From Anaerolineae bacterium (GTDB lineage: Bacteria; Chloroflexota; Anaerolineae; Anaerolineales; E44-bin32), in the NCBI GenBank assembly GCA_030605795.1, contig JAUWHR010000029.1, positions 1 to 48,369 on the forward strand: a stretch of 48,369 bases of DNA. Reading direction: 5' to 3'. The notes under the pieces were generated by a model that saw only the letters and a list, made by a program, of their open reading frames with translations, had not been told where the DNA came from and did no database searches. Positions 13,392 through 31,118 of this stretch are shown here, piece after piece; position 1 is the stretch's first letter, and every line of letters starts with the position of its first letter. The translations under genes and the position numbers were made by a program.

Positions 13392-14510
13392 TTATAATCG
13401 GGATACAACAGCGTGGGCTACATCTATCGTCGAGCTATCTCCACCTGTATCGTAAGTGCGGACCGTACCCTCGGCGATCACCGCGGCAATCGCGGCTTCA
13501 AGCGTTTGAGCCAGCTTAGTTTCCCCCAACCAATCGAGCATGAGCTTGGTGGCGAGCAACATCGCCGTCGGGTTGACCTTATATTGCCCGGCATATTTCG
13601 GTGCAGAGCCATGCGTAGGCTCGAAAACGGCGAAGTGGTCACCAATGTTGCCACTGGAGGCGAAACCTAAGCCACCCACGAGTTGGGCTGACAAGTCTGA
13701 GACAATATCACCGAACATATTGCTGGTGACGATTACGCCGTAGTCGTTCGGGTTCTTGAGCAGCCACATCATCTGGGCGTCAATGTTGGTCTCCCAGAGC
13801 TCGATTTCGGGGTATTCTGCGGCCACCGCCCGCGCCTCTCGAGTCATCAATCCACTAGTTTCGCGTAAAACGTTTGGTTTCTCAACCAGGGTTACTGTCG
13901 GATAGTCATACTTACGGGCGTATTCAAAGGCTTGTCGGATGATGCGCTGAGCGCCGGTCTTGGTGATGACCCGTAGGCTGATGGCAATTTCATCACCGGG
14001 CACATCGTCGAAGCGCGCCATTCGGGGATTGAACTGAGTGAGCGAGGCGCGTAAGTCATCGGGGAGGGGGTGAAACTCGACTCCACTATAAAGACCCTCT
14101 GTGTTCTCACGGAAGATTACCAGATCAATGTCATCTCGGTAATTGAGGGGGTTGCCGGGGTAGGCTTTACAAGGACGCAAATTGGTATAGAGGTCGAACA
14201 ATTGACGTAAGCCAACTATTGGGCTGTGGTAGGTGAGCCCTTTATTCTTCAATTCCGGTGCTAATTCGTGTGCTGCCTCGTCTTTAGGTTTAGAAGTGAT
14301 CGCTCCAAAAAGCCCACAGGTGCATGTTTTCAGAATATCGATCGTACGTTGGGGTAAGGGATCACCCGCCTGGCACCAAAATTCCCAGCCGATTTCGGCC
14401 GGGATATATTCTGCATCGAGGTTCAACGCGTCTAGCACAATGTGCGCCGCTTCCATGACGTCGACCCCGATACCATCACCCGGCATCCAAGCTATTCGGT
14501 ATTTCGCCAT
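13392..14510 (-). CDS. Isocitrate/isopropylmalate dehydrogenase family enzyme, probable isocitrate dehydrogenase
   Basis: 372 residues. The beta-decarboxylating dehydrogenase signatures are present: IAWMPGDGIGVDVME, TNLRPCKAYPG (substrate arginine), FRENTEGLYSGVEF, VTLVEKPNVLR, the metal-binding NMFGDIVSDLSAQLVGGLG and the nucleotide site FEPTHGSAPKYAG. The family covers isocitrate, isopropylmalate, homoisocitrate and tartrate dehydrogenases. In this cluster, beside citryl-CoA lyase and an aconitase-type hydratase, isocitrate is the most likely substrate, working in the reductive (carboxylating) direction. GAGGAG precedes the ATG. Sequence alone does not exclude homoisocitrate or isopropylmalate. 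Confidence 0.85.
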   Translation of the reverse strand: MAKYRIAWMPGDGIGVDVMEAAHIVLDALNLDAEYIPAEIGWEFWCQAGDPLPQRTIDILKTCTCGLFGAITSKPKDEAAHELAPELKNKGLTYHSPIVGLRQLFDLYTNLRPCKAYPGNPLNYRDDIDLVIFRENTEGLYSGVEFHPLPDDLRASLTQFNPRMARFDDVPGDEIAISLRVITKTGAQRIIRQAFEYARKYDYPTVTLVEKPNVLRETSGLMTREARAVAAEYPEIELWETNIDAQMMWLLKNPNDYGVIVTSNMFGDIVSDLSAQLVGGLGFASSGNIGDHFAVFEPTHGSAPKYAGQYKVNPTAMLLATKLMLDWLGETKLAQTLEAAIAAVIAEGTVRTYDTGGDSSTIDVAHAVVSRL

Positions 14511-14548: not shown

Positions 14549-15085
14549 TTAACTACTTGGAATGTGAGTTGCCTCCGTGTGCGATTCACGCAAGATGTTG
14601 CGTGTGTAAGGAATTAGACCACCGGCCTCGAAAATCTTCATTATTGCTGCAGGAAGTGGTTGGAAGGTGAATGTACCGGCATTGCAGTGGATCTCACCGG
14701 CTTCGAGATCGATTTCAATCGTCTCGCCATTGCCAATGGCGTCCACCGCATTCGGACAGATCAAAGCCGGGAGGGCAGCATTTAGGCAATTGCGGTAGTA
14801 GATCCGGGCGAAGGATTTGGCCACAATAGCTCCCAAACCGCCGTGCTTTAAACAAATCACAGCTTGTTCCCGCGAGGAGCCACAACCCCAATTCGTCCCG
14901 GCAACGATGATGTCGTTTGGTTGAACACCTGCGGAAAAGCGTGCGTCCAGGTCTTCTAGTGCGTACCTGGGCATATCAGCCGGATCACTGACGGTGTAGG
15001 TATATTTACCGGGAAAGATCACGTCGGTGTTTACATTGTCGCCGTATTTCCAGACACGGCCGCTGATTGTATTTTTACTTTCCAT
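14549..15085 (-). CDS. Aconitase/isopropylmalate-isomerase family, small (swivel) subunit
   Basis: 178 residues, matching LeuD-type small subunits. It shows the swivel-domain features GRVWKYGDNVNTDVIFPGKY, the substrate loop GTNWGCGSSREQA and SFARIYYRNCLN. I start it at the ATG at 15085, whose ATG overlaps the stop of the large subunit by one base (TGATG); a longer frame would lie inside the large-subunit gene. With the neighbour it should form a heterodimeric hydratase that isomerises citrate/isocitrate, or a homologue such as isopropylmalate or homocitrate. Confidence 0.9.
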   Translation of the reverse strand: MESKNTISGRVWKYGDNVNTDVIFPGKYTYTVSDPADMPRYALEDLDARFSAGVQPNDIIVAGTNWGCGSSREQAVICLKHGGLGAIVAKSFARIYYRNCLNAALPALICPNAVDAIGNGETIEIDLEAGEIHCNAGTFTFQPLPAAIMKIFEAGGLIPYTRNILRESHTEATHIPSS

Positions 15086-16341
15086 CACACCAGGTCCTTT
15101 GGGTGTGTAATCACGCCAGTAACAGCTGAGGCAGCGACGACCAACGGGTTGGCCAAGTAAATCTCGCTTTCTTTTGTGCCCATGCGACCACGGAAGTTGC
15201 GGTTGGCGCTGCTGATCGTAACCTCGCCGACCGCCGGTACGCCCATATGGTTGCCCATGCATGGGCCACAACCAGGACTTTCAATCACCGCTCCCGCATT
15301 AAGCAAGGTCTCGATGTACCCTTTCCGTAGGGCCTCCTTGTACACCTGCGACGAAGCTGGGATGACGATCATTCGTGTACCGTCAGCTACCTGTTTACCT
15401 GATATAACGTGGGCTGCAGCAGCCAGGTCATCCAAGCGACCATTGGTGCAGGTTCCTATAAACGCTTGATCGATGTGGGTACCGGTGATCTCCGAAAGTG
15501 GCCTCACATTGTCCACAGTATGGGGACAGGCGATCATCGGTTCGATAGTCGAGGCGTCGTATTCCACAACTAGTGTGTAATCGGCATTTGAGTCTGGGTA
15601 GACCGGTTTAAAAACACGCTTAGCTCGCTTGTCGAGGTAAGCAAAGACTTTCTGATCTGGAGGGATGTAGCTGTTCTTAGCGCCCACCTCTGCCGTCATA
15701 TTAGTGAGTACGGCTCGTTGGGACAAATCAAGAGCCTCGATTGCTTCACCATGCCATTCGACAGACATATAGAGAGCGCCATCAGCGCCTAGGTCGCCAA
15801 TAACGTGCAGAGCCAAGTCCTTGGCCGTGACCCACGTGGCTAGTGCCCCATGGACGACGATCTTAATGCTCTCCGGTACCCGTAGCCAGAGGTCGCCCAG
15901 AGCCCAAATGGAAGCCATCTCGCTGCGCCCGATCCCGGCGCCGAACGCGCCCATCACACCTGCGTGGAGCGTGTGTGAATCGGAGCCCAGCACTACCTCA
16001 CCTGGCAAAGCTAAGCCCTCTTCGACTAGCACTTGGTGGCAGACGCCTCGGCCAACATCAAAAAAGTATGGGATTCCTTGCTTGCGCACAAAATCTCGGA
16101 TGATTCGGTGGTTCTCGGCGTGTTTGGTCGTGGGAGCCGGTGCGGCGTGGTCGAGGAAGATAGCGTGCATCTCCGTGTCAAATACCTTCACCCCACCCAT
16201 TTTTCTAAAGATGCCGATAATGGGTGCTGTATTATCGTGGGAGAGCGCCACGTCAGGGGTGATCTGTACAATCTCTCCTGGAATCACTCGTTTCAGTCCG
16301 GCTTTCTTAGCTAATATCTTCTCGGCGAATGTCTGACCCAT
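15085..16341 (-). CDS. Aconitase/isopropylmalate-isomerase family, large (Fe-S) subunit
   Basis: 418 residues, LeuC/homoaconitase-like. The three [4Fe-4S] cysteines are visible in [13 protein letters not shown] and [14 protein letters not shown], and the substrate-binding stretches [22 protein letters not shown] and [13 protein letters not shown]-like segments are present. The enzyme interconverts a hydroxy-tricarboxylate through dehydration. The location between citryl-CoA lyase and isocitrate dehydrogenase points to a citrate-isocitrate role. Together with the 178-residue partner this is the split archaeal/bacterial type, not the single-chain AcnA or AcnB. Confidence 0.9.
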
Positions 16342-16600: not shown

Positions 16601-17137
16601 CTAACCATACCTCGTCAAATCAAAATCGATGAAATCTGCGTGGTGGAAGATAATCGATTCGGGACGGCGCCTGAACTTGTCGCCTTCCCAGGAGTGGGTG
16701 GCGACGATGTGCATCACGGCTTCGGGGATATCGTGCTTGAAGCATAAGCCGACACCAGTAAAAGGGTGGCGAAGATATTGATACATGCTAGCCCATTGGT
16801 ATTCGCCATCTACCTCCCGGATCTCGATTAACTTCCCTACATCAGCGAGCAGGGCACCCGCAACCAGCGTATCGTGGTCGATCTCATAACGATCGCCATA
16901 CTCGTCTGCGAGCACGTTCTCTACAGCGAGACAGAGCCGGCAAACGACACTCACATGCTTTGGAAAAGAGATGTCTACATCCTTAACTAGCAGGGTGTAC
17001 GGCATTTCACGCAGGTCCTCGATCGACCAGCCGCCGATTTCCATGGCTTCTGACCAAACTGCAAGGACATGCTTTCTGAGATCATCATCATATATGAGAT
17101 TGAATTCGGGGATCAGATCCGTTAGATCGCTGATCAT
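16601..17137 (-). CDS. HD-domain-like protein with altered HD motif
   Basis: 178 residues from the ATG at 17137, which has AGGAG at the right distance. A longer frame from a TTG at 17215 would translate the REP palindrome at 17180-17202, so I reject it. The fold looks HD-like: first His in KHVSVVCRLCLAVENVL, then DTLVAGALLADVGKLIEI, then HPFTGVGLCFKHDIPEAVMHIVATHSWEGD and IIFHHADFIDFD. The His of the HD pair is replaced by Ala (LLADVGK, about residue 98), which should affect metal binding. It sits inside the citrate/isocitrate gene cluster; function unknown. Confidence 0.75.
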   Translation of the reverse strand: MISDLTDLIPEFNLIYDDDLRKHVLAVWSEAMEIGGWSIEDLREMPYTLLVKDVDISFPKHVSVVCRLCLAVENVLADEYGDRYEIDHDTLVAGALLADVGKLIEIREVDGEYQWASMYQYLRHPFTGVGLCFKHDIPEAVMHIVATHSWEGDKFRRRPESIIFHHADFIDFDLTRYG

Positions 17138-17179
17138 TTCGTCATCTCCTAACATGCCAGCGCTTTCTGCGAGGCCTCC

Positions 17180-17202
17180 TACAAGACCTCGGAGGTCTTG
17201 TA
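17180..17202. repeat. REP palindrome next to the transposase gene (copy 1)
   Basis: Eleven-base arms (17180-17190, 17192-17202) pair perfectly around a single base. The core AGACCTC/GAGGTCT is the same as in copies 2 and 3. It lies between the HD-like gene and the 3' end of the REP-associated transposase. Confidence 0.85.
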
Positions 17203-17222
17203 AAGACTTATTCAAATATTAA

Positions 17223-17789
17223 CTACTCGATTATCTTTCGCTCACCAGTTGAGTATGTTTCGACAAATTCCCGGTATGTCTCCACTGATGGAAATTGAGA
17301 CAACACAACCTCTGGGGTGGGAATCGTCCCCCTTCGCAATCCGGTGTACTCATGATAACTTGAAAATTCCCAATCCTCTGGTTGCTCCACCAAGCCGGCC
17401 ATCACAGGGTTCAAGTGGATATATCGGGATAGATGTATTAAATAATCATCGTGATCCACGTATTTTGCCTGAAAAGGGCCTTGAAACAGAACACCGACGC
17501 GATCATATTGTTTGTTAATCGCTTTGGTGTAGGAAACAGCGAGTTGCATCATTGCTTTTGATACACCCGCCGAGGTTTCCGAGGTCTTCCTGATTTTAAC
17601 AAGCAGATGGTAATGTGTCGGCATAAGGCAATATGCTACTATATCAAGCACAGGAATTAGGTATACTCTCAGCCGTTGCAAGAAGAAGAGGTAGTTCTCA
17701 TGCTCGTAGAATACACGCTCCCGATTATTACCCTGGTTATAAAGGTGATAGCATTCACCGGGGTATAAATAGACTTTACGCCGTGGCAT
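17223..17789 (-). CDS. REP-associated tyrosine transposase (RAYT, Y1/HUH type)
   Basis: 188 residues. It has the Y1 transposase layout of IS200-like/RAYT proteins: GECYHLYNQGNNRERVF, then the HUH motif MPTHYHLLVK, then the SYTKAINKQYDRVGVLFQGPFQAKYV segment and SRYIHLNPVMAGLV. RAYTs nick and move REP palindromes rather than themselves, and REP copies lie right beside this gene at both ends. In the middle a short stretch (KTSETSAG) is encoded by bases resembling the REP core. It interrupts the citrate-cleavage cluster between citryl-CoA lyase and the HD gene, on the same strand. Confidence 0.92.
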   Translation of the reverse strand: MPRRKVYLYPGECYHLYNQGNNRERVFYEHENYLFFLQRLRVYLIPVLDIVAYCLMPTHYHLLVKIRKTSETSAGVSKAMMQLAVSYTKAINKQYDRVGVLFQGPFQAKYVDHDDYLIHLSRYIHLNPVMAGLVEQPEDWEFSSYHEYTGLRRGTIPTPEVVLSQFPSVETYREFVETYSTGERKIIE

Positions 17790-17860: not shown

Positions 17861-18634
17861 CTATAACGACCTTGGTCCTGGACCGTCATACTCGTGATCA
17901 GTCGGGTGGATGCGGCGCATGGGGCTTTCCCGCATTCTTTCCTCATGAATGTGCGCCACTAGCCCGGGCACGCGAGCCATGATGAAAAAGGCATTGGCCA
18001 ATTCCCGCGGCATATCCAGGTCGACGAGTAAGGCGGCAATGGCGCCATCGACGTTGATCGGAAGGTTCTTACCCGTTGAGGAGAGTGCATTCTGTAGAGC
18101 GCGAATCATGGCCACCCCATTACCCGCCACCTCCAATTCTTCGGCAAGAGAGAATAGTCTATCCGTGCGTGGGTCTGTGGAGTGGATGCGGTGACCTAAC
18201 CCAGCGATCCGTCTTTTCTCAGTTTGGTATTCGGCGATCAGATCACCCGCCACTGTTGCAAGGGATTTACTGCCCTCGGCCGCACGCTGCAGCCCCTCCT
18301 GCAAAATGCCCATGCAATCGAAGATCGCACCGCCATGGTGTCGGTTGATGGATAGCACACCAACGGCTATTGCCGCGTTGAGTTGTGCGCCAGTTGATAC
18401 GGCTGTACGCGCAGCAAGGACAGAAGGGGGTGTCACACCATGATCGATAGAAGAGACCAACATTGCATCCAGCAAGCGGCCTACATGGGGAGATGGCAAT
18501 TCACTTTTTAGGGCCAGGAAGATGGCCTGGGCGAAAGTCACCCGGCCCATCAGTTCGTCTATCCTATAGCCGCGCAGCCTGACCTGGTTAGGTTTGATCT
18601 GGGTAATTGCGGTTTTCCATTTCTTTTCGCTCAT
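17861..18634 (-). CDS. Citryl-CoA lyase (citrate-synthase-fold)
   Basis: 257 residues, matching the short citrate-synthase-like domain of citryl-CoA lyases and of the C-terminus of ATP-citrate lyase, and much shorter than true citrate synthase (about 380-430). Catalytic residues can be placed: His65 in SSIDHGVTPP, His148 in GLGHRIHSTDPR, and Asp196 in LPINVDGAIAALL. Expected reaction: citryl-CoA to oxaloacetate plus acetyl-CoA. It overlaps the ligase alpha subunit by 4 bases, so the synthetase and lyase are translationally coupled, as expected of two-step citrate cleavage. Confidence 0.9.
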   Translation of the reverse strand: MSEKKWKTAITQIKPNQVRLRGYRIDELMGRVTFAQAIFLALKSELPSPHVGRLLDAMLVSSIDHGVTPPSVLAARTAVSTGAQLNAAIAVGVLSINRHHGGAIFDCMGILQEGLQRAAEGSKSLATVAGDLIAEYQTEKRRIAGLGHRIHSTDPRTDRLFSLAEELEVAGNGVAMIRALQNALSSTGKNLPINVDGAIAALLVDLDMPRELANAFFIMARVPGLVAHIHEERMRESPMRRIHPTDHEYDGPGPRSL

Positions 18635-19542
18635 AATGATATCCCGTGCTTTTTTAGGATGGCTAGCGTTGCCTGGGGTAATTCACCAAAGGTCTCGACC
18701 ACAGTCACGCCAACTTCTCGCAGGCGCTCAACTTTTCCCTTATAAGTGCCCCGATTACCTTCAATGATAGCTCCGGCATGGCTGAAACGCGTTCCGCTCT
18801 TTGCCGCCTTGCCGCCGATGAAGGCTACTATCGGTTTGGTCACTTCGTCAGCCTCCACCAGATCAGCCACCTGCTCTTCCTGGCTGCCGCCGATTTCACC
18901 GAACATTACGATAGCTTTAGTTTCTGAATCAGACTGGAATAGCTTGACCACCTCAGGGTGTGGAAGTCCCACTACAACATCCCCACCGACGTGGACGAGG
19001 GTCGTAGCACCTATTCCCTCCTGGGCTAAATAATAGGCCATTGAGGAGGTGATCCCACCAGAGCGAGAGGTGATACCCACAGGTCCGGGGAAGAACCACG
19101 AGCGGGCGGAGGCTGCTCTACCACCGATCATGCCTAGCACAGCTTTACCTGGTGAGAGCACGCCAAGAGTATTTGGGCCGACAAATCTAGCGCCGGTCCG
19201 TTTGGCGGCGTCAGCAATCTCTAGTACATCAAAAATTGGTACCCGGTCGGGGACGATCACCAGCAATTTAACCCCCGCATCAATCGCCTCCAACGCAGCG
19301 CTTTTAACAATCGGCGCCGGGATAAACAACACGCTAACATCGAGGGCTCCCACCATCTCCCAGGCTTCCTGAACGGTGTCGAATACGGGCACGCCATTCA
19401 CCTGTTGCCCGCCTTTTCCAGGCGTCACGCCGGCTACGACCTGCGTCCCGTATTCCTGCATTAAACGCGCGCGTGTCTGGCCTTCCCGACCAGTTATCCC
19501 CTGCACAAGCACACGTTTAGTTCTATCAATCAATATGGACAT
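18631..19542 (-). CDS. Succinyl-CoA-synthetase-alpha-like subunit of a probable citryl-CoA synthetase
   Basis: 303 residues, full SucD length. A CoA-binding Rossmann domain starts with KRVLVQGITGREGQTRARLM, and the ligase domain has GPVGITSRSGGITSSMAYYL, GEIGGSQEEQVADLV and the phosphohistidine loop RFSHAGAII (His255). SucD proteins form acyl-CoA via a phosphohistidine. Coupling to a citryl-CoA lyase rather than to other TCA ligase genes suggests citrate as substrate, as with CcsB of Hydrogenobacter. Succinate or malate cannot be excluded from sequence. A REP palindrome lies between it and the beta subunit. Confidence 0.85.
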   Translation of the reverse strand: MSILIDRTKRVLVQGITGREGQTRARLMQEYGTQVVAGVTPGKGGQQVNGVPVFDTVQEAWEMVGALDVSVLFIPAPIVKSAALEAIDAGVKLLVIVPDRVPIFDVLEIADAAKRTGARFVGPNTLGVLSPGKAVLGMIGGRAASARSWFFPGPVGITSRSGGITSSMAYYLAQEGIGATTLVHVGGDVVVGLPHPEVVKLFQSDSETKAIVMFGEIGGSQEEQVADLVEADEVTKPIVAFIGGKAAKSGTRFSHAGAIIEGNRGTYKGKVERLREVGVTVVETFGELPQATLAILKKHGISL

Positions 19543-19596: not shown

Positions 19597-21129
19597 TTAA
19601 ACTCTATCCAAGCCCGGGATTGGCAGGATGATGTGACCGCCTTGGTTTCCCTCAAAGTAGCATTCAATCTCACATGCCAGGCATTCAATACACCCCCCTC
19701 TCTTGGCCTGCTCATGGGTTATATTCAACATAGGTACCTCACCCTCCAGACTGAGTATGCCCGGGACACAGGTATCGATGCATATCTTTGTCTCGCAATC
19801 GAGACAGGCAGCGTGATCAAGTATCACCGTGCCGTTGGTCACTGTCTCGAAGGTATAGGGATCCTGCGGCTCTGGATGGACCTTACCTGCCGGTTTCATG
19901 GTGGGGCGGCGGTAGTTCTGGATAAGTGTATCGAGACGCTCGGCGCAGAACTCGGGAGAGTCGTCCTTCCCGTAACTTTCTATCGGAGCCGGGATTTCCC
20001 CTTGAGCTCTCTCCATGATAGCCATCGCCCGTTCCTCGGCGTTACCTCCCAGGCGGATAACTGCAGGTACGGTTAGTGGATGTTCCATGAAAGCTTTCAC
20101 CAACCCTCGAGCGCTATGGAATTGCTCTTGTGAGGCCACACCTGATCCTGAGGCGAAGTATCCATCAATACCGCTCTGGGCTAGGATGATTCGCGCGGCA
20201 CGGTAGACCTTCGACGCCGGCGGATTACCGCTGGTATCTACGAAATTAGCGAGCTTGTAGCCGCGGTTTAATACCGCATCCATACTCATCATCGAGCCCC
20301 CACCTCCGGCGCCATGGAAGCCGATCATTCCTTCGCCAGGCGAGAAACCACGCTCCAATTGGATGAAGTAAAACGTACCGCGATAGTCGTTCTTCTCGAC
20401 CTGCCAAGCTATTATTTCTAATTCTGTAGGTGGGCGATCAAACTCACGCGCAATCTCGATACCTAATTCAGGGTGGCGGTAGACGGCATAATCATCTATG
20501 GTGATCCGGCAGTCAGCGGCGAATAATTTTCCCTCAGGCGTAAGTACGATCGGGTTGATCTCCGCTGCTCGAGCATCATATCGTCGAGCAACTCCGTAGA
20601 GCCGGGTAAGCAGGTTCCCAAGACTGAGTTGTAATTTGCCATGCAACCCAACCTGGCGGATGAGATCTCTGGCCTGGTGATCCTGTAAGCCGCGTTGAAT
20701 GTCGATTACCAGCCGGACAACCGCATCCGGGTATTTCTCGGCAATCTCCTCAATTCCGCTCCCCCCGATACGACTGAAAATTATCACCGGGGCTTGAGAC
20801 TGGTCGTCGATGATCACGCCAGCGTAGAACTCACGCTTGATATCCAGTTTACCCTCCACCATCACTGTATCAACCAAATAACCCTTAATCTGCATTCCGA
20901 GAATTGCGGACGCCGCAGCTGCAGCTGCAGCTGGAGTATCTACAAAGCGAATCGCGCCCAGCTCAGCTCGCCCAGTGACCCATGCTTGGGCCTTGACTAC
21001 CACAGCTCCGCCGATTTCTTCCGCTAGAGCTTTTGCCTCTTCTGGAGATCGAGCCGGACCACCATTCGGGACAGGAATTTTCGCTTCCTTTAGTAAACTT
21101 TTCCCCTGATATTCATGCAAACGAGCCAT
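19597..21129 (-). CDS. ATP-grasp acyl-CoA synthetase beta subunit fused to a ferredoxin domain (probable citryl-CoA synthetase)
   Basis: 510 residues. Residues 1 to about 400 are SucC-like ATP-grasp: MARLHEYQGKSLLKEAKIPV, the GGAVVVKAQAWVTGRAELGAIRF substrate-binding segment, REFYAGVIIDD, EINPIVL and the GFHGAGGGGSMMSMDAVL loop. Residues about 441-500 add eight cysteines in two motifs: C442/C445/C450/C454 and C480/C483/C486/C490 (CxxCxxxxCxxxC and CxxCxxCxxxC), matching a two-[4Fe-4S] ferredoxin. Ordinary SucC ends near residue 390. The fused domain suggests electron transfer, or structural contact with the ferredoxin-based complexes encoded divergently. GAGAGGG precedes the ATG. Confidence 0.85.
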   Translation of the reverse strand: MARLHEYQGKSLLKEAKIPVPNGGPARSPEEAKALAEEIGGAVVVKAQAWVTGRAELGAIRFVDTPAAAAAAASAILGMQIKGYLVDTVMVEGKLDIKREFYAGVIIDDQSQAPVIIFSRIGGSGIEEIAEKYPDAVVRLVIDIQRGLQDHQARDLIRQVGLHGKLQLSLGNLLTRLYGVARRYDARAAEINPIVLTPEGKLFAADCRITIDDYAVYRHPELGIEIAREFDRPPTELEIIAWQVEKNDYRGTFYFIQLERGFSPGEGMIGFHGAGGGGSMMSMDAVLNRGYKLANFVDTSGNPPASKVYRAARIILAQSGIDGYFASGSGVASQEQFHSARGLVKAFMEHPLTVPAVIRLGGNAEERAMAIMERAQGEIPAPIESYGKDDSPEFCAERLDTLIQNYRRPTMKPAGKVHPEPQDPYTFETVTNGTVILDHAACLDCETKICIDTCVPGILSLEGEVPMLNITHEQAKRGGCIECLACEIECYFEGNQGGHIILPIPGLDRV

Positions 21130-21442: not shown

Positions 21443-21723
21443 ACTGAGTAGTTACGAAATAATACTGTTTTTATCCTGAATACTCGAATTTCTGACTATA
21501 AGCCTAGATTTCGCTGACAGGTGGTACTTGTTTGTGCACGAGATTGCTCCTACTCTGCACTCATGATGGACAGTTATTCATTTCAGGCTGATTTGAGGTT
21601 TTGATTGCTGGTATTAATATTTGTATGGGATGCGAATTCGGCTGTCTCAAAGTTGCCAGGAGCTCAAGTGTTTGCTAAAGTGTGGGCTACCTGGAGGACT
21701 TTCAGTCGAAGAGGTTGAATGAG

Positions 21724-22266
21724 ATGAGATCTGAAATGCGGTTTGCTGGATTTGGTGGGCAAGGGATTATCTCAGCCGCGATGATTTCCGGTCGGGCAGC
21801 AGCCCTCTACGATGGAAAAAACGCCGTCCTTACTCAATCTTACGGTCCGGAAGCGAGAGGCGGCGCCTGTAATGCTAATGTCATCATCTCAGAGGATAAA
21901 ATTGCTTATCCCGAGGTTGTCTCTCCTGATCTTCTGGTAATTATGTCCCAGGAGGCATTCACCACATTTGGAAAGAACATCGCTGAGGGGGGGACGATGA
22001 TCATTGACCAAGACCTAGTAGAATCCACTGAAGTCCCTGCCAATATCAGCCTAGTTGAGGTCCCGGCCACAAGGATCGCAGAAGGTTTAGGGAATAAGAT
22101 TGTTGCCAATGTGGTCATGTTGGGAGTGATCTCCGCTTTGAGTGACATCGTGGGGAAAGATGCCATGCTCGAGTCGGTTCGGGTCTCGGTGCCAACCCGG
22201 TTCATCGAAATGAACGAACGTGCCTTCAAAGCCGGTTATGAATACGGAATGGGTGTAAATCAATGA
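21724..22266 (+). CDS. korC: 2-oxoacid:ferredoxin oxidoreductase gamma subunit
   Basis: 180 residues from the ATG at 21724, which has GAGG nine bases before it; a GTG at 21682 would add 14 unsupported residues. Motifs of the gamma subunit are clear: RFAGFGGQGIISAAMISG, LTQSYGPEARGGACNANVIIS, and the VSPDLLVIMSQEAF region. It shuttles electrons in 2-oxoglutarate:ferredoxin oxidoreductases. The alpha, beta and delta subunits are 9 kb downstream at the end of the same unit, so korC is split from korDAB by the hdr-mvh-frd genes. Its stop overlaps the start of hdrA (ATGA). Confidence 0.92.
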   Translation: MRSEMRFAGFGGQGIISAAMISGRAAALYDGKNAVLTQSYGPEARGGACNANVIISEDKIAYPEVVSPDLLVIMSQEAFTTFGKNIAEGGTMIIDQDLVESTEVPANISLVEVPATRIAEGLGNKIVANVVMLGVISALSDIVGKDAMLESVRVSVPTRFIEMNERAFKAGYEYGMGVNQ

Positions 22267-24215
22267 GTCGCATCGGTGTCTTCGTCTGTCATTGCGGGAT
22301 GAATATCGAGCGGACCGTTGACACCCAAGCTGTGGCCGCGACGCTAAGTGAGCACTCCGGAGTCGTGTTTACCACCGACTATAATTTTTTATGCGCCGAT
22401 CCCGGGCAAAGGTTGATCAGGGATGCGATTGCAGAGCACAAGCTAGACGGCATAATTGTCGCTGCTTGCTCGCCGGCGATGCATGAACCGACCTTCCGCC
22501 GTGTGGCTGCAGAGGCGGGTTTAAACCCATATCTATGCGAGATCGCCAACATACGTGAACATTGTAGTTGGGTACATCAAGATCGGGATAAAGCAACACA
22601 AAAAGCGATCCGGATAGTCAAGACCTTGGTGGAGAAGGTTCGGGGGAATCAACCCCTGGAACCGTTGCGCATCGACCACGATGACAAGTGCCTGGTGATC
22701 GGCGGTGGAATTGCCGGGATCCAGGCCGCTCTGGATGTCGCCGAGAGCGGTTTTGAAGTGATCCTGGTTGAGAAGGAGCCATCGATCGGTGGTCATATGG
22801 CCCAGCTTTCTGAGACCTTCCCCACCCTCGATTGTTCCCAGTGCATCCTCACCCCGAAGATGGTCGAGGTCTCGCGCCACCCAAACGTTCGCTTGCTTAC
22901 CTACAGCGAAGTGGTGGAGGTTACCGGGTATGTGGGTAACTACGAGGTCAAGATCCGCAAGAACCCGACTTATGTAGATCCAGACAAGTGCAATTTGTGT
23001 GGGGAGTGTGTGAAGGTCTGCCCAAAGAGCGTGGGGAGTGAGTTTGAGCGCGGCCTCGTCGAGCGCAAGGCTATCTACATACCCTTCGAGCAGGCGATCC
23101 CCTCATCCTACACCCTGGACGAGGAGGCCTGTTTGGGACTGCATCCACTACGGTGCAGTGAGTGCGCTAAAGTTTGTGAGCCGAAGGCGATTGATTACGA
23201 CATGCGTCCCGAGTATATCGAAGAGAGTGTAGGAGCGATCATCGTTGCCACCGGATATAGTCTTTACCCAATCTCCTCGCTAACTGAATACGGGGGAGGG
23301 CAAATTCCTGATGTGATCGACGGCCTGCAGTTCGAGCGGCTTCTTTCCGCCTCAGGTCCGACCAGTGGGGAGGTGCGGCGTCCTTCAGATGGGAAGATTC
23401 CCAAGAAAGTAGTCTTTATACAATGCGCCGGCTCGCGCGATCCGGAGCGGCATAACGCCTACTGCTCGAAGATCTGCTGCATGTATACCACCAAACATGC
23501 CCTACTATACCGCCATGCTGTACCGGATGGAGAGGCGGTTGTTTTCTATATTGATATCCGCGCTGGCGGGAAGGGATACGAAGAGTTCACCCAGCATGCG
23601 ATAGAGGAGGAGAGGATCCTGTACCTGCGGGGTAAGGTCTCCAAGGTTTATCGCCAGGATGATCGAGTTGTTGTGTGGGGTGTAGATACTCTCTCTAATC
23701 GGCGGGTTGAGATTGAGGCTGACCTGGTTGTCCTGGCAATCTCTATGAATCCACATCCATCGAACCTTGCCCTCTCCAAGATCCTCAAAATCAGCTGTGA
23801 TGCGGATGGCTTCCTCAAGGAGGCGCACCCGAAGTTAAGGCCGGTGGAGAGCTTAACCGCCGGGATATTCCTCGCCGGCGCGGCCCAAGGTCCTAAGGAC
23901 ATACCGGAGGCGGTTTCCCAGAGCAGCGGAGCGGCGGTCAAAGCAGTTACCCTGCTCACCAAGGATAAACTGATCCACTCCCCTGAGGTTGTGGAGATCG
24001 ACGAGGCGATCTGCGGCGGATGCGGGATTTGCGTCGACATGTGTCCGTACAACGCCTTGGCGGTGAACGGAGCAGGTGTAGCGGAGGTGAACGAGGTTCT
24101 ATGTGAAGGATGCGGATCATGCGTCTCTGCTTGCCCGACCGGAGCAGCGCAATTGAAGAATATGACTACCCAGCAGTTCGTCGAGATGATTGAGGTAGCG
24201 CTTCAAGATGGCTAA
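22263..24215 (+). CDS. hdrA: Heterodisulfide reductase subunit A (flavin, bifurcating)
   Basis: 650 residues. The N-terminus GVFVCHCGMNIERTVD is typical of HdrA. The FAD-binding GGGIAGIQAAL is at residues 147-157. Fe-S motifs: C191/C194, C243/C246/C249/C253, C290/C298/C301/C305, and two C-terminal ferredoxin motifs at C584/C587/C590/C594 and C614/C617/C620/C624. The N-terminal and two C-terminal Fe-S motifs plus the flavin match HdrA of complexes in which one flavin splits electron pairs between ferredoxin and a high-potential acceptor. It overlaps korC (4 bases) and mvhD (8 bases). Confidence 0.95.
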   Translation: MSRIGVFVCHCGMNIERTVDTQAVAATLSEHSGVVFTTDYNFLCADPGQRLIRDAIAEHKLDGIIVAACSPAMHEPTFRRVAAEAGLNPYLCEIANIREHCSWVHQDRDKATQKAIRIVKTLVEKVRGNQPLEPLRIDHDDKCLVIGGGIAGIQAALDVAESGFEVILVEKEPSIGGHMAQLSETFPTLDCSQCILTPKMVEVSRHPNVRLLTYSEVVEVTGYVGNYEVKIRKNPTYVDPDKCNLCGECVKVCPKSVGSEFERGLVERKAIYIPFEQAIPSSYTLDEEACLGLHPLRCSECAKVCEPKAIDYDMRPEYIEESVGAIIVATGYSLYPISSLTEYGGGQIPDVIDGLQFERLLSASGPTSGEVRRPSDGKIPKKVVFIQCAGSRDPERHNAYCSKICCMYTTKHALLYRHAVPDGEAVVFYIDIRAGGKGYEEFTQHAIEEERILYLRGKVSKVYRQDDRVVVWGVDTLSNRRVEIEADLVVLAISMNPHPSNLALSKILKISCDADGFLKEAHPKLRPVESLTAGIFLAGAAQGPKDIPEAVSQSSGAAVKAVTLLTKDKLIHSPEVVEIDEAICGGCGICVDMCPYNALAVNGAGVAEVNEVLCEGCGSCVSACPTGAAQLKNMTTQQFVEMIEVALQDG

Positions 24216-24645
24216 GCTGAACGATAACGGTTTTGAGCCCAAGATTGTCGCCTTCCTTTGCCGTTGGTGCTCATACGCCGGCGCCGATTTGGCCGGTGTG
24301 AGTCGGATGACCTATCCGGCCAACATCATCCCTATGCGGGTCAACTGCTCGGGGAGGGTCGACGCGGGGATGGTGATGGCGGCGTTTGAAAAGGGAGCCG
24401 ATGGTGTGCTTATCGGAGGCTGCCACCCCGGTGATTGTCACTATGTGAATGGAAACTACAAGACCCGTCGCCGGGTCATCCTGCTGAAACGAGCGCTGGC
24501 GGAAGTGGGGGTCAAACCTCAACGTTTGCATCTGGAATGGATCAGCGCCAGTGAGGGGGTGAAGTTTCAGCGCACGGTGACTGAATTCACGGGACTAATC
24601 AAGGAACTCGGGCCGAGCCCGATGAGTGGAGATGGAGAAGATTAG
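24208..24645 (+). CDS. mvhD: F420-non-reducing hydrogenase iron-sulfur subunit D
   Basis: 145 residues, the usual size of MvhD. It has the five conserved cysteines C18, C21, C47, C72 and C77 (FLCRWC, VNCSGRVD, GGCHPGDCHY), which carry a [2Fe-2S] cluster and link the hydrogenase to HdrA. It overlaps hdrA by 8 bases and mvhG by up to 20, consistent with stoichiometric assembly. FeS-MvhD modules also occur beside other donors, so hydrogenase linkage is read from the neighbouring mvhGA rather than from this gene alone. Confidence 0.95.
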   Translation: MAKLNDNGFEPKIVAFLCRWCSYAGADLAGVSRMTYPANIIPMRVNCSGRVDAGMVMAAFEKGADGVLIGGCHPGDCHYVNGNYKTRRRVILLKRALAEVGVKPQRLHLEWISASEGVKFQRTVTEFTGLIKELGPSPMSGDGED

Positions 24646-25582
24646 GATCGGAATATATTGGGCCGCATCCTGCGGCGGATGCGATGTCTCGCTCCTCGAG
24701 ATCGATGAACAGATCCTCGACGTGGCGGCTAAAGCCGATTTCGTCCTATGGCCTTGCGCCACCGACACCAAATATGCTGATCTGCGCGCTTATAAGGACG
24801 GGTCGATTGATATCGTCTTGTTTAATGGGGCGATCCGCACCGAGGAGAATCGCGAAATTGCTAAACTCCTGAGAGATAAGGCCAAGCACCTCGTCGCCTA
24901 TGGGTCGTGCGCGCAAATGGGTGGGGTGATCGGGCTGGCCAACCTGTCAAGCCGAAAGGAGATCTTCACCACTCTCTTTGGAGCAAAAACCCATTGGCCA
25001 AAAGAGGAGTCCATTCAGGACGGCTATCCGCTTCACCTCCCCGCTTTCCTCGATCGCTTGCTACCCCTAGGGGATGTGGTCGAGGTCGACTATGTCATCC
25101 CCGGCTGTCCTCCGCCTCGGGAAATGGTGAGCCAGTTCTTCGATGCGCTCCTGGGGGGGAAACTACCCGAGAAAGGAGCGGTCTTTGCCGCGGAGAAGAA
25201 TCTGTGCGACGAGTGCCCGCGAGAGCGGAGGGAGGAGCGGATTACGCGGATTGTCCGACCGCATGAGATTGAATCTGATCCGGAAATCTGCCTTCTTGAT
25301 CAGGGGATTATCTGCATGGGTCCAGCAACGCGAGGTGGCTGTGGCGCCGCCTGCCCAATGGCGAATATGCCTTGTACCGGTTGCGCTGGACCTACGGCGA
25401 ATATAACCGATCAGGGGGCGACGATGCTGAACACCATCGCTTCTCTCATCGGGACTGGCCTGGAAGGAGAGGAGGAACTAGAAGCGGAGGAGGCTATCCT
25501 AGCCGAAATCGATGATGTCATTGGTACATTTTACCGCTTCAGCCTCGCGGCATCGATCTTTAAAGGAGCTCAGCGTGAGTAA
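24626..25582 (+). CDS. mvhG: [NiFe] hydrogenase small subunit of the Mvh group
   Basis: 318 residues from GTG 24626; an ATG at 24632 is equally possible and neither has a clear ribosome site. It has the proximal-cluster SCGGCDVSLLE motif near residue 16, YGSCAQMGG, PGCPPPREM, and the C-terminal cysteine set CDECPRERREE and GGCGAACP...PCTGCAGP for medial and distal [4Fe-4S] clusters. No twin-arginine leader, so the enzyme is cytoplasmic. It passes electrons from the large subunit to MvhD and overlaps mvhA by 8 bases. Confidence 0.93.
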   Translation: MEMEKIRIGIYWAASCGGCDVSLLEIDEQILDVAAKADFVLWPCATDTKYADLRAYKDGSIDIVLFNGAIRTEENREIAKLLRDKAKHLVAYGSCAQMGGVIGLANLSSRKEIFTTLFGAKTHWPKEESIQDGYPLHLPAFLDRLLPLGDVVEVDYVIPGCPPPREMVSQFFDALLGGKLPEKGAVFAAEKNLCDECPRERREERITRIVRPHEIESDPEICLLDQGIICMGPATRGGCGAACPMANMPCTGCAGPTANITDQGATMLNTIASLIGTGLEGEEELEAEEAILAEIDDVIGTFYRFSLAASIFKGAQRE

Positions 25583-27041
25583 AGAATTTAAACGCATCTC
25601 CATCGATCCGATCACCCGGCTAGAGGGGCATGGAAGGATTGAGCTCTTTCTGGACGAGGAAGGGGAGCTGGCCGACGCCTTCTTTCAAATCCCGGAACTG
25701 CGCGGCTTCGAGCGTTTCTGCCAGGGACGGAAGGCAGAGGACATGCCGCAGATAACGGAGCGGATCTGCGGAGTCTGTCCGGAAGCGCACCATCTCGCCT
25801 CGACCAAGGCTCTTGATGACTGCTTTTCCGCTACCCCGCCGCCACGGGCGCGTAAGCTACGTGAACTTTTATATAACGCCTACATTTTTTCCGATCACCT
25901 GCTTCACTTCTACTACCTGGGTGGACCGGACTACCTGGTCGGACCGTACGCCCCTCCACAGGAGCGAAATATTCTCGGAGTGATTGGCAAGGTTGGGCCA
26001 GAACTAGGTAAGGAAGTAATCAAGCACCGTTCCTATGGTCAGCGGATCATCGAAGCGGTCGGAGGGCGCTCGATTCACCCGGTGACCGGGCTCCCCGGTG
26101 GGCAGTCGAAAGCGATAAACGAAGAGGAACGTTCAGAGATCGAGCAGATGGCTCGCTCCTGCGTGGAATTCGGTCGGGTGACACTTTCAATATTCAAGGA
26201 GATATTCCTCGGAGATAAGACGTACCAGCAGTTCAGCCAGGAGAAGGCGCAGAGACTTCCCACCTACTACATGGGTCTTGTGGACGAGGATGGAGCGGTC
26301 AACTTCTACGATGGGAAGGTGCGGGTCGTGGCGCCGGATGGCGAGGAGTTCGCTCTTGCCGAGGGAAAAGAAGTTCTCGATTTGATCGACGAGCGGACGG
26401 AGCCGTGGACCTATGTGAAGATCCCCTATCTCAAAGAAGTCGGCTGGCAGGGGTTCCGGGCCGGTAAGGATAGTGGGATCTACCGTGTCGGCCCGCTCGC
26501 CCGATTGAATGTCTGTAAGCGGATGGGGACACCCCTCGCCCAAGCGGAGTATGAAGCCTATCTGGACTATTTCGGTGGGGGAGTGGTGCATGCCACTTTT
26601 GCTTATCACTGGGCGCGTATTATTGAAATGCTAGCAGCGGCTGAACAGACAACTCGGCTCGTGGCTGATCCGGAGCTTATGGAAGGTGCGCTGCGGTCGG
26701 AGCTCAGCGACCCAGGAGAAGGAGTGGGAATCATCGAGGCTGCACGGGGGACGCTCATCCATCATTACCTACTTGATGAGAAAGGGCTAGTCCGATCGGC
26801 CAACCTGATCGTTGCTACAACACACAATATTGCTGGCATCTCGCTATCGATAAAGGAGATGGCGCGCGCCGTCGTTCACAACGGCGAGGTCGATCAGGGG
26901 ATCCTGAACCTGATCGAGATGAGTTTCCGCAACTATGATCCGTGTTTGGCTTGCGCCACCCACGCTTTTCCAGGACAGATGCCTTTGCTCGTTGTAGTCC
27001 GTGACTCGGCCGGTCGTGAGATTAAGAGAATTGAACGATGA
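25575..27041 (+). CDS. mvhA: [NiFe] hydrogenase large subunit of the Mvh group
   Basis: 488 residues from GTG 25575, chosen because AAAGGAG lies 6 bases before it and the overlap with mvhG is then 8 bases. Both nickel-binding motifs are intact: RICGVCPEAHH (C65, C68) and DPCLACATH (C457, C460, H463). A 25-residue tail follows His463, as in hydrogenases whose C-terminus is cut during maturation; no maturation protease is in this window. It oxidises H2 and feeds MvhG. Its stop codon overlaps the next start as ATGA. Confidence 0.95.
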   Translation: MSKEFKRISIDPITRLEGHGRIELFLDEEGELADAFFQIPELRGFERFCQGRKAEDMPQITERICGVCPEAHHLASTKALDDCFSATPPPRARKLRELLYNAYIFSDHLLHFYYLGGPDYLVGPYAPPQERNILGVIGKVGPELGKEVIKHRSYGQRIIEAVGGRSIHPVTGLPGGQSKAINEEERSEIEQMARSCVEFGRVTLSIFKEIFLGDKTYQQFSQEKAQRLPTYYMGLVDEDGAVNFYDGKVRVVAPDGEEFALAEGKEVLDLIDERTEPWTYVKIPYLKEVGWQGFRAGKDSGIYRVGPLARLNVCKRMGTPLAQAEYEAYLDYFGGGVVHATFAYHWARIIEMLAAAEQTTRLVADPELMEGALRSELSDPGEGVGIIEAARGTLIHHYLLDEKGLVRSANLIVATTHNIAGISLSIKEMARAVVHNGEVDQGILNLIEMSFRNYDPCLACATHAFPGQMPLLVVVRDSAGREIKRIER

Positions 27042-27202
27042 ATAGGCTGATCATCGGTCGGGTGAACCTGATCGCTATATGGATGTACGATCAAATCGGA
27101 AAGAAACTAGTGGGAGCCTCTAAACTCGTAGGTGGAGGCGGTGGCATGGGAATAGTCAGCGAGCTCCTATGCGAGATTAGGGAGGGGATCACTGTTGGCT
27201 AG
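27038..27202 (+). CDS. Predicted 54-residue small protein in the hdr-mvh unit
   Basis: Too short for standard gene calls. The frame starts with ATG in an ATGA overlap with the mvhA stop and ends 8 bases inside hdrC. It therefore fills the only gap in an otherwise gapless unit. The protein begins MNRLIIGRVNLIAIW, has a five-glycine run at about residues 32-36, and ends LCEIREGITVG; there is one cysteine. It has no recognisable family; the opening LIIGR is weakly like hydrogenase maturation proteases but the rest is not. The neighbouring TTG start of hdrC uses the GGAGGGG that is inside this frame. Confidence 0.5.
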   Translation: MNRLIIGRVNLIAIWMYDQIGKKLVGASKLVGGGGGMGIVSELLCEIREGITVG

Positions 27203-27593
27203 AAATGGACTCGAGATTATCGAGGGCTTGTTGGAGAAGGTGGAGGAGCTCTCTGGGCAAAACGTCTTTGCCTGTTATCAGTGCGGGATGTGCTCGGCAG
27301 GCTGCCCCTTAACCGACGAGATGGACTTACTCCCCAACCAGGTGATCCGTGGGCTGCAACTGCGAGATTGGCGAACGATGGAGAGCAACGCCATGTGGAT
27401 CTGCGCGAGTTGCTTCAGCTGCCAGGTACGATGCCCTAAGGGAGTCGACCTCGCTAGGCTGATGGAAGCAATGCGCCAGATCTACTTGCGCCAGCAATTG
27501 GATCATGTGTCGATTGACGACATGACGCCAGAGCAGATCAGTAAGCTTCCCCAGATTGCCCTGGTAGCGAGTTTCCGTAAGAAGACTGGCTAA
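27195..27593 (+). CDS. hdrC: Heterodisulfide reductase subunit C
   Basis: 132 residues from TTG 27195, with a strong GGAGGGG seven bases upstream. Two ferredoxin motifs are intact: CYQCGMCSAGCPL and CASCFSCQVRCPKGVD, each a [4Fe-4S] site. HdrC carries electrons from HdrA to HdrB. It lacks membrane helices, so this is the soluble HdrABC form rather than the HdrDE type. It is followed after 5 bases by hdrB. Confidence 0.93.
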   Translation: MARNGLEIIEGLLEKVEELSGQNVFACYQCGMCSAGCPLTDEMDLLPNQVIRGLQLRDWRTMESNAMWICASCFSCQVRCPKGVDLARLMEAMRQIYLRQQLDHVSIDDMTPEQISKLPQIALVASFRKKTG

Positions 27594-27598
27594 AAGAT

Positions 27599-28477
27599 AT
27601 GGACGGACTCACCTATTTCCCCGGATGTAGTTTGAAGGAAGAAGCCAAGGAATTCGAGATCTCGGCTATGGCTGTGATGAAGGCTTTGGGACTGCCTCTC
27701 ATCGAATTTGAGCGCTGGAACTGCTGCGGGACGGTCTTTTCCCTCACCGAGGACGACCTGATGCATCAACTAGCTACAATCCGAAACCTGATTCGGGTTC
27801 AAGAGAATGGCTCTGAAGAAATTGTAACCCTATGCTCGATGTGTTACAACACATTGAAGAGATCGAGCTTGTTCGTGAATCGTGATAAAGAGAGGTTGGA
27901 AAAGATCAACGCCTTTATGGACAGGGAGCAGGCGTACGAAGGTAAGGTCGAGGTGCGCCATCTTCTGGAAGTCCTTCGCGACAGAATTGGATGGGATAAG
28001 GTGGAGGAAGCGATGACCCATTCCCTGGAGGGGCTTTCAGTCGCCCCCTACTATGGATGCATGCTCCTCCGACCCAGGGAAGTGGGGATCGACGATCCGG
28101 ATAATCCAACTATTATGCAGGATCTTATTGAAGCTCTGTGGGCAACCCCGGTGGAGTTCCCGTTCCAAACGGAGTGTTGTGGGTCTTACCAGGTTGTGGA
28201 TCGTCGTGAGTTAATTGTGGAGCGAACCCACCGAATCCTGAGCTCGGCCCGCCGGTCTGGAGCCGATGTGGTGATCACTAGTTGTCCACTATGCCAATAT
28301 AACCTTCAAAAAACCCAATCCGAGTTGAAGGAGACCATCCCTACTTTTGAAGAGATGCCGGTTATATATTTCACTCAGCTAATGGCTGTTGCGCTGGAGG
28401 TAGATAGCGGCGAACTCCCTAGCCCACTGCTTGCGGGACTCGCAATTGAAGAAGGAGTGGGAAATGGGGAAAGGTAA
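27599..28477 (+). CDS. hdrB: Heterodisulfide reductase subunit B (two CCG domains)
   Basis: 292 residues. Both cysteine-rich CCG domains are complete. Domain 1 has YFPGCSLKEE, WNCCGTVFSL and LCSMCYNTL; domain 2 has PYYGCMLLRP, ECCGSYQVV and TSCPLCQYNL. In methanogens the two noncubane [4Fe-4S] clusters of HdrB reduce CoM-S-S-CoB. A bacterium without these coenzymes must use another acceptor, and the next genes encode a fumarate reductase. HdrB-type domains also occur in thiol:fumarate reductase TfrB and in SdhE-type complexes, supporting such a link. Confidence 0.93.
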   Translation: MDGLTYFPGCSLKEEAKEFEISAMAVMKALGLPLIEFERWNCCGTVFSLTEDDLMHQLATIRNLIRVQENGSEEIVTLCSMCYNTLKRSSLFVNRDKERLEKINAFMDREQAYEGKVEVRHLLEVLRDRIGWDKVEEAMTHSLEGLSVAPYYGCMLLRPREVGIDDPDNPTIMQDLIEALWATPVEFPFQTECCGSYQVVDRRELIVERTHRILSSARRSGADVVITSCPLCQYNLQKTQSELKETIPTFEEMPVIYFTQLMAVALEVDSGELPSPLLAGLAIEEGVGNGER

Positions 28478-29171
28478 CATGAACGAACAAGAAAATGCGA
28501 TGATAAGAATACATGTGATGGGTAAAACCTACCAGGTTCCTGCCGGTCTTACCATAATGGATGCGATGGAATATTCTGGTTACCGGTTTATCCGTGGGGC
28601 AGGGTGCCGCTCTGGGTTCTGTGGCGCCTGCTCTACGATCTATCGTAGAGAAGAGGATTACAGACTCCAATTTGCCCTTGCTTGCCAGGAAATGGCAGAA
28701 GACGGCATGTACCTGGTGCAGCTTCCCTTCACCCCGGCGCCAAGGTCAAAATACAACCTTGAGGAAATAGACCCCTCCGAAAACGTGTTGCTGCAGTACT
28801 ATCCAGAGATTGCCCGATGCGTCTCGTGCAACACATGCACTAAGGCTTGCCCGCAGGATATCGAGGTCATGGATTATGTGCAGGCTGCGCTTCGGGGGGA
28901 TATTGCCCGAACAGCCGCTCTTTCCTTCGATTGCATCCAATGTGGCCTGTGTACCATGCGCTGTCCAGCGGACATTAAACACTACCATATGGCGCAGATG
29001 GCCAGGCGGATCTACGGAAGATATCTCTCTCCAGTTCCAAATCACCTTGAAGAGCGGTTGTGCGAGATTGAGGAAGGGGTCTACGACAATGAACTGGGCA
29101 AGCTTATGGCTATGAATAAAGAGGAACTGGGAATAGCTTATGCCGCTAGAATAAGGGAAGAAGCAAAGTAA
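28464..29171 (+). CDS. frdB: Fumarate reductase/succinate dehydrogenase-type iron-sulfur subunit
   Basis: 235 residues from ATG 28464, which has GGAG six bases before it and overlaps hdrB by 14; ATG 28479 is an alternative. The N-terminal plant-type [2Fe-2S] domain shows GAGCRSGFCGACS...LAC. The C-terminal part has CVSCNTCTKACPQ and CIQCGLCTMRCPAD. The last motif has all four cysteines, so a [4Fe-4S] cluster is expected where SdhB/FrdB usually has [3Fe-4S]. No membrane anchor subunit follows, which fits a soluble complex. TfrB of methanogens has a similar module fused to an HdrB-like part; here HdrB is separate and adjacent. Confidence 0.88.
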   Translation: MGKGNMNEQENAMIRIHVMGKTYQVPAGLTIMDAMEYSGYRFIRGAGCRSGFCGACSTIYRREEDYRLQFALACQEMAEDGMYLVQLPFTPAPRSKYNLEEIDPSENVLLQYYPEIARCVSCNTCTKACPQDIEVMDYVQAALRGDIARTAALSFDCIQCGLCTMRCPADIKHYHMAQMARRIYGRYLSPVPNHLEERLCEIEEGVYDNELGKLMAMNKEELGIAYAARIREEAK

Positions 29172-29176
29172 GGGAA

Positions 29177-30847: not shown

Positions 30848-30857
30848 AGGAGCAATA

Positions 30858-31118
30858 TTGGTTACAGGTCAGATCGCTAAACGTTGGAAAACGTCACTTG
30901 GTTGGATTACCATTGTAGACAGTCTCTGCAAAGGTTGCGGATTTTGCATCGAGTTCTGCCCGCTTAATGCCCTCGAGGAATCGCAAGAATTCAACCAACA
31001 TGGGTACCACTTTCCTGAGATGGTAAACCCGGAGGCGTGCGTCAACTGTGAATATTGCCAGTTAGTCTGTCCGGATTTCGCCATCTGGAGCGAGATTGAG
31101 GAGGAGCACCCTGATTGA
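30858..31118 (+). CDS. korD: 2-oxoacid:ferredoxin oxidoreductase delta (ferredoxin-like) subunit
   Basis: About 86 residues. I start it at TTG 30858, five bases after GAGGAG, rather than farther upstream inside frdA. Two ferredoxin motifs are present: CKGCGFCIEFCPLN and CVNCEYCQLVCPD, both [4Fe-4S]. KorD accepts electrons from the alpha-beta-gamma core. Its end overlaps the korA start region. Confidence 0.88.
   Translation: MVTGQIAKRWKTSLGWITIVDSLCKGCGFCIEFCPLNALEESQEFNQHGYHFPEMVNPEACVNCEYCQLVCPDFAIWSEIEEEHPD

Follow-up and report, generated by a model that had tools for sequence, protein, structure and literature searches.

The window, a 48,369-nucleotide stretch of contig JAUWHR010000029.1 from an Anaerolineae bacterium (assembly GCA_030605795.1), holds at 19597-21129 a single minus-strand ORF of 510 aa that is read without interruption, while the plus strand over the same positions contains many stops. 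The initial annotation had placed there a SucC-type ligase carrying a ferredoxin; the architecture and the coordinates are retained, and the gene lies on the minus strand. We call the product SucC-Fd. The features considered here are the following:

19597-21129, minus: SucC-Fd, predicted citryl-CoA synthetase (CCS) large (beta-type) subunit with a dicluster ferredoxin (ORF, Pfam, alignment, structure prediction)
20497-21123, minus: ATP-grasp part, residues 3-211 (Pfam and invariant columns)
19915-20442, minus: CoA-ligase/citrate-binding part, residues 230-405, with the CCS-like signatures PPTELEI...NDYRG and GNPPASKVYR (PF16114 match and alignments with CcsA, 6hxq_B)
19615-19860, minus: ferredoxin domain, residues 424-505 (profile search, AlphaFold2, alignment, Foldseek)
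19768-19806, minus: cluster motif I, C442-X2-C445-X4-C450-X3-C454 (sequence and alignment)
19660-19692, minus: cluster motif II, C480-X2-C483-X2-C486-X3-C490 (sequence and alignment)
18631-19542, minus: SucD-like small (alpha-type) subunit (phosphohistidine motif SHAG)
17861-18634, minus: citryl-CoA lyase, CCL (NCBIfam PRK06224 family, 260.6 bits against a cut-off of 212)
16601-17215, minus: conserved operon member of 204 aa, no Pfam family, HD-hydrolase-like by eye
15085-16341, minus: aconitase/IPMI-family large subunit, AcnL (family match)
14549-15100, minus: aconitase/IPMI-family small subunit, AcnS (sequence reading; found beside AcnL again in other loci)
13392-14510, minus: isocitrate/homoisocitrate-dehydrogenase-family protein, IDH (family match)
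21682-22266, plus: KOR gamma subunit, divergent neighbour, start probably slightly downstream (family match)
30864-33134, plus: KOR delta, alpha and beta subunits, delta being a separate ferredoxin at 30864-31118 (family match)

Residues 1 to about 405 of SucC-Fd make up a whole SucC-type ATP-grasp/CoA-ligase chain. Pfam placed ATP-grasp_2 on residues 3-195 (E 9e-53) and PF16114, the ATP-citrate-lyase citrate-binding model, on residues 267-389 (5.2e-8, above its cut-off). In an alignment of 79 homologues the ATP-grasp residues K46, R54, E100, E190, N192, P193 and D206 were unchanged. The variable linker that follows, residues 406-423, shows a mean identity of the commonest residue of 27%; the same measure is 68% for the ferredoxin domain, while the ATP-grasp part reaches 69% and the CoA-ligase part 79%. 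The AlphaFold2 model of the full protein has a mean pLDDT of 93.

The C-terminal domain exists as the initial annotation had proposed but is longer, about 82 residues instead of about 70. The eight cysteines that it had located at C442-C454 and C480-C490 match the ORF. All eight are invariant in the 79 aligned homologues, which bear about a dozen phylum-level labels (names from record titles), and C395, in the ligase part, is a ninth invariant cysteine. Non-cysteine residues of the domain are conserved too, including a C-terminal LP motif. A codon comparison of the ferredoxin with that of L003, a homologue of 91% identity, shows differences at 19 synonymous and 5 nonsynonymous sites and indicates that the domain is under purifying selection. 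Modelled alone, the domain adopts a confident fold in AlphaFold2 (mean pLDDT 95.3), and the two CX2C...CX3C motifs lie within this predicted ferredoxin fold, as is typical of 2[4Fe-4S] ferredoxins. Both clusters would probably be present, the fourth cysteine of each motif presumably ligating the other cluster in the canonical arrangement.

Pfam Fer4_9, a dicluster model, matched the C-terminus weakly (residues 441-490, E 0.008, below cut-off). With the domain alone as Foldseek query, the credible matches (probability 0.85 and above) were mostly bacterial-type dicluster ferredoxin domains, including those of hydrogenase, oxalate oxidoreductase, FixX and HgcB, at E-values of 0.1 and above that are weak because the domain is so short. 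A profile search of PDB sequences gave KGOR delta (8ys5_D, E 7e-4) as the nearest, then archaeal zinc-type ferredoxins. The profile and fold likeness to KGOR delta, FixX (7koe_D) and HgcB is weak, and these proteins serve oxidoreductases or methyltransferases, whereas the SucC-Fd domain belongs to an ATP-dependent ligase. We rejected the domain as a replacement for KOR delta (KorD/OorD), as it scored 23.1 bits against a curated OorD cut-off of 93 and a separate KOR delta gene is present in the window.

The distribution of the fusion was then examined in other genomes. Close relatives in a family-level sample (E below 1e-170) were all full length unless cut by a contig end. The best 80 matches in the GTDB collection reach query residue 504 or beyond, with the eight-cysteine pattern in all; five of the six patterns of that scan lie outside the ferredoxin, so that there was no simple selection for it, yet the score ranking still favours full-length matches. 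Profile searches of the class and of two further phyla, which are less biased, gave matches at E 1e-80 or better in 36 of 396, 16 of 199 and 4 of 40 genomes, respectively. These strong matches are all full length, except at contig ends or assembly breaks and in separate-gene forms. One class match (G362) is an ordinary SucC beside KOR genes, and two apparent truncations (L145 and L146) retain the ferredoxin, which there lies in a different frame or after a run of N. The initial annotation, which had called for a domain and fold search, would have given up the ferredoxin for a frameshift artefact or for its absence from close relatives together with a lack of bound clusters; the searches returned the fusion in relatives along with the dicluster matches, and all close relatives have the domain. 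The source is a draft MAG, but dozens of independent assemblies, including a single-contig genome, contain the fusion at full length, and the eight cysteines are invariant, so that an assembly or frameshift artefact has a negligible chance of being the explanation. Fused homologues likewise rule out a fusion restricted to this genome. Plasmid records searched with SucC-Fd gave ordinary ligases only, under 60% identity, and searched with two separate ferredoxins gave no matches.

Downstream of SucC-Fd the genes keep a conserved order: SucD-like, CCL, HD-like protein, aconitase large subunit, aconitase small subunit and IDH. Among the 48 loci with at least 3.5 kb of downstream sequence, SucD was found in 43, CCL in 36, the HD-like protein in 33, AcnL in 27, AcnS in 21 and IDH in 15; in the window, as in some relatives, the last gene of the operon is of the PrpD family. 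The SHAG motif of the SucD-like subunit is present in 70/70 homologues scanned. Three loci (L029, L035, L047) have no adjoining SucD, yet CCL occurs elsewhere in the genome. In the genomes G483 (L146) and G499 (L148), SucD and CCL form one polypeptide, which is 60-65% identical to CCL of the window across about 250 residues, and L036 and L039 have unusually long SucD ORFs. The SucD-CCL fusion is the layout of AclA, which argues that the three proteins share one substrate.

Some further observations concern this operon. The fusion of L146 and L148 beside SucC-Fd has the ATP-citrate-lyase layout and is possibly of separate origin from classical ATP-citrate lyase (ACL). The HD-like protein is a possible pathway regulator. 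In the window it is separated from CCL by an IS200/Y1-type transposase-family gene (REP-associated type, 17223-17789, minus), whose sole other homologue among the compared loci, in L084, is far from the operon.

We consider it very probable that SucC-Fd is a citryl-CoA synthetase subunit, because of its SucD-like, CCL, aconitase and IDH neighbours, its CCS signatures and the SucD-CCL fusions of some lineages. CCL, aconitase and IDH genes occur beside it across many phylum labels. The locus encodes a SucC-like subunit in which the ATP-grasp residues are conserved, a SucD-like subunit with the phosphohistidine motif, and a partner CCL, and the segment PPTExEI...DxRG and the GNPPA motif are common to SucC-Fd and Hydrogenobacter CcsA (6hxq_B) and absent from SucC in our alignments. 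Citrate had been named as the probable substrate in the initial annotation, in agreement with the CCL, aconitase and IDH neighbours and with the PF16114 match. An identity as succinyl-CoA synthetase was rejected, the scores being 256.6 bits against the SCS beta cut-off of 370 and 242.3 against 375.6, and SucC forming a separate clade; contig C24 of the window genome carries an ordinary SucC with a SucD-like gene beside it.

In Hydrogenobacter thermophilus (CcsAB and CCL, PDB 6hxq) the SucC-like, SucD-like and CCL proteins are separate, as in the window. CcsA matches the fold of SucC-Fd (E 2.4e-30, 29% identity) and its corresponding segment reads PPTEREI...DDHRG, but it has 429 aa and no ferredoxin domain was matched in it; in the tree it forms a very long, uncertain branch at the midpoint root. 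The operon is expected to carry out the same net reaction as ATP-citrate lyase (AclA/AclB of Chlorobium, 6hxj; human ACLY), whose citrate-binding model SucC-Fd matches and whose AclA layout recurs in some relatives; in the window, unlike in AclA, the SucD-like protein and CCL are separate ORFs, and no ferredoxin domain was matched in solved ACLs. SucCD has the fold and the catalytic residues of SucC-Fd, T. aquaticus SCS beta being the best PDB match, while SucC is without ferredoxin and CCS signatures. Type II ATP-citrate lyase (tubeworm symbionts; low-similarity Nitrospina ACL) has been described as a divergent, poorly characterised ACL (PMC3522073, PMC3578206), and the excerpts of these two papers mention no ferredoxin domain. 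The same holds for the excerpted open-access literature on CCS/CCL, ACL and type II ACL in general, and in openly licensed papers we found no description of a citryl-CoA synthetase with a ferredoxin domain. In predicted reaction and in layout the system is a CCS, with the ferredoxin as an additional subunit.

Acid-CoA ligases are generally reversible, and the operon ends with a PrpD-family gene in the window and some relatives, which would suit another hydroxy-acid such as 2-methylcitrate, or a mainly oxidative, ATP-forming direction. Both seem rather improbable, since the operon includes aconitase- and IDH-type genes and its CCL scores above the curated cut-off of the citryl-CoA-lyase family.

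A search of the window genome (assembly 81% complete) found no citrate-synthase-fold gene besides CCL. CCL co-occurs with SucC-Fd in 16 of the 17 further genomes reached through the loci (the exception is G721, locus L072), and most of these 17 have a full citrate synthase too. In family relatives, the CCL-length match to the citrate synthase model adjoins SucC-Fd, and full-length citrate synthases occur in many genomes that lack SucC-Fd. The Thermoflexus sp. genome of locus L062 (G723) has, besides the CCL linked to SucC-Fd, a second CCL-like match in a 610-aa open frame, perhaps of the classical AclA type.

Divergently from SucC-Fd, the plus strand from 21682 to 33134 carries KOR, HdrA, MvhD/G/A, HdrC, HdrB, a 2Fe-2S + 4Fe-4S iron-sulfur protein and a TfrA/SdhA-like flavoprotein in one cluster, possibly a hydrogen-linked electron-bifurcating fumarate reductase/KOR module. 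Such neighbours, together with KOR genes in several relatives and the profile proximity to KGOR delta, are what one would expect if the ferredoxin served to dock the ligase on KOR, Hdr-Mvh or some other enzyme that uses ferredoxin, so that substrates could be channelled or electrons exchanged. Docking of this kind, suggested in the initial annotation, is weakened by the window KOR having its own delta ferredoxin, by most related loci being without KOR, and by the neighbours of the sister ligases, which have the same ferredoxin beside CitE-type, HMG-CoA-lyase-type or methylmalonyl-CoA-mutase genes and not beside ferredoxin enzymes. We regard it as improbable.

These sister ligases are distant unfused SucC relatives within the class. 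In all nine (L102, L103, L137-L143) a separate ferredoxin ORF of about 90-120 codons lies between the sucC-like and sucD-like genes; that of L102 begins right behind an AGGAGG-like site. Their other neighbours differ: fumarase-type hydratase genes and a CitE-type lyase in L102; CitE-type lyases in L137; a CitE-type lyase and PrpD in L138; aconitase-family genes, PrpF and a hydroxymethylglutaryl-CoA-lyase-family protein in L142 (and L141 by layout); methylmalonyl-CoA mutase with a small gene, read as the corresponding epimerase, in L140 (and L139 and L143 by layout); and HMG-CoA reductase in L103. Because the ferredoxin stays with SucC and SucD while the pathway varies, we favour a function within the ligase itself rather than docking to KOR. 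In the tree, the ferredoxin-associated SucC proteins group together (97/84), apart from ordinary SucC (100/99), and the fused forms are one clade (100/99). The ferredoxin looks like an ancestral third ligase subunit within a clade of acid-CoA ligases, and the simplest history would be a separate ferredoxin subunit first, followed by one fusion in the citrate branch. A phylum-wide search with one separate ferredoxin gave just two matches at 1e-8, both fused, and lacks the sensitivity needed for a count of separate copies. Sequence data show the composition and conservation of the ferredoxin, its synteny and its ancestry.

In the unfused relatives C442, C450, C454, C486 and C490 are kept, and cluster II varies: C480 is lost in L102 and L138, and C483 is replaced by Asp in L103 and L142. 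The resulting CXXDXXC is the motif form of Pyrococcus ferredoxin, and cluster II of these proteins may be a 3Fe or Asp-ligated cluster. The altered cluster could tune a sensor, or mean that the fold alone matters; a uniform redox function is not assured in view of this variation.

The known ligase reaction has no redox step, and a ferredoxin is unexpected there, as the initial annotation had pointed out. This, with the invariant ligands, speaks for redox or oxygen gating of the ligase, to which we give close to, at best, an even chance. Many genomes have citrate synthase alongside SucC-Fd, which without control would produce an ATP-wasting futile cycle; the argument is not applicable to the window genome, where citrate synthase was not detected (MAG 81% complete). 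The redox sensing suggested earlier is compatible with all findings, although it is not demonstrated. A structural role accounts for the same conservation: the ferredoxin fold and clusters would keep SucC attached to SucD, or to the lyase, without transporting electrons, as in some glycosylases and amidotransferases, whose [4Fe-4S] clusters are structural. The ferredoxin is always found with SucC and SucD, its gene standing between theirs where it is unfused, its non-cysteine residues are conserved, and an electron relay would tolerate badly the varying cluster II ligands. But CcsA and ordinary SucC function without a ferredoxin, and none of the eight ligands varies within the fused clade; we find the structural role unlikely, less so than docking.

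Our main reading, to which we assign a probability of roughly 0.5, is that SucC-Fd is a CCS large subunit with a built-in 2[4Fe-4S] ferredoxin, an ancestral subunit acting as a redox or oxygen gate. SucC-Fd and the SucD-like subunit would convert citrate, CoA and ATP to citryl-CoA via the phosphohistidine, and the adjoining CCL would cleave citryl-CoA to acetyl-CoA and oxaloacetate, so that the operon would stand in for an ATP-citrate lyase in a TCA half-cycle that includes KOR. The ferredoxin would be an ancestral ligase subunit fused in this clade, not an accessory for KOR docking, and would turn the ATP-spending ligase on only when the low-potential electron pool is reduced. More broadly, and a little more tentatively, there may be a class of acid-CoA ligases made of SucC-like, ferredoxin and SucD-like subunits, in which the ferredoxin is an obligatory third component, controlling a supposedly redox-neutral reaction or coupling electrons to it. 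Such ligases would act on citrate and probably other hydroxy-acids, the CoA esters being split afterwards by unrelated lyases.

The cleavage of citrate is among the key steps of the reductive TCA cycle. SucC-Fd next to CCL offers a sequence marker for this cleavage in uncultured Anaerolineae, Aminicenantes, KSB1, Zixibacteria, Marinimicrobia and others, where searches with Chlorobium or Hydrogenobacter references may miss it. The separate-gene relatives make the role of the ferredoxin testable. If the main reading is true, a ferredoxin subunit in an ATP-committing enzyme would tie the flow of carbon directly to the cell's reducing power; alternatively, iron-sulfur clusters would turn out to serve an unexpected structural purpose in this ligase family.
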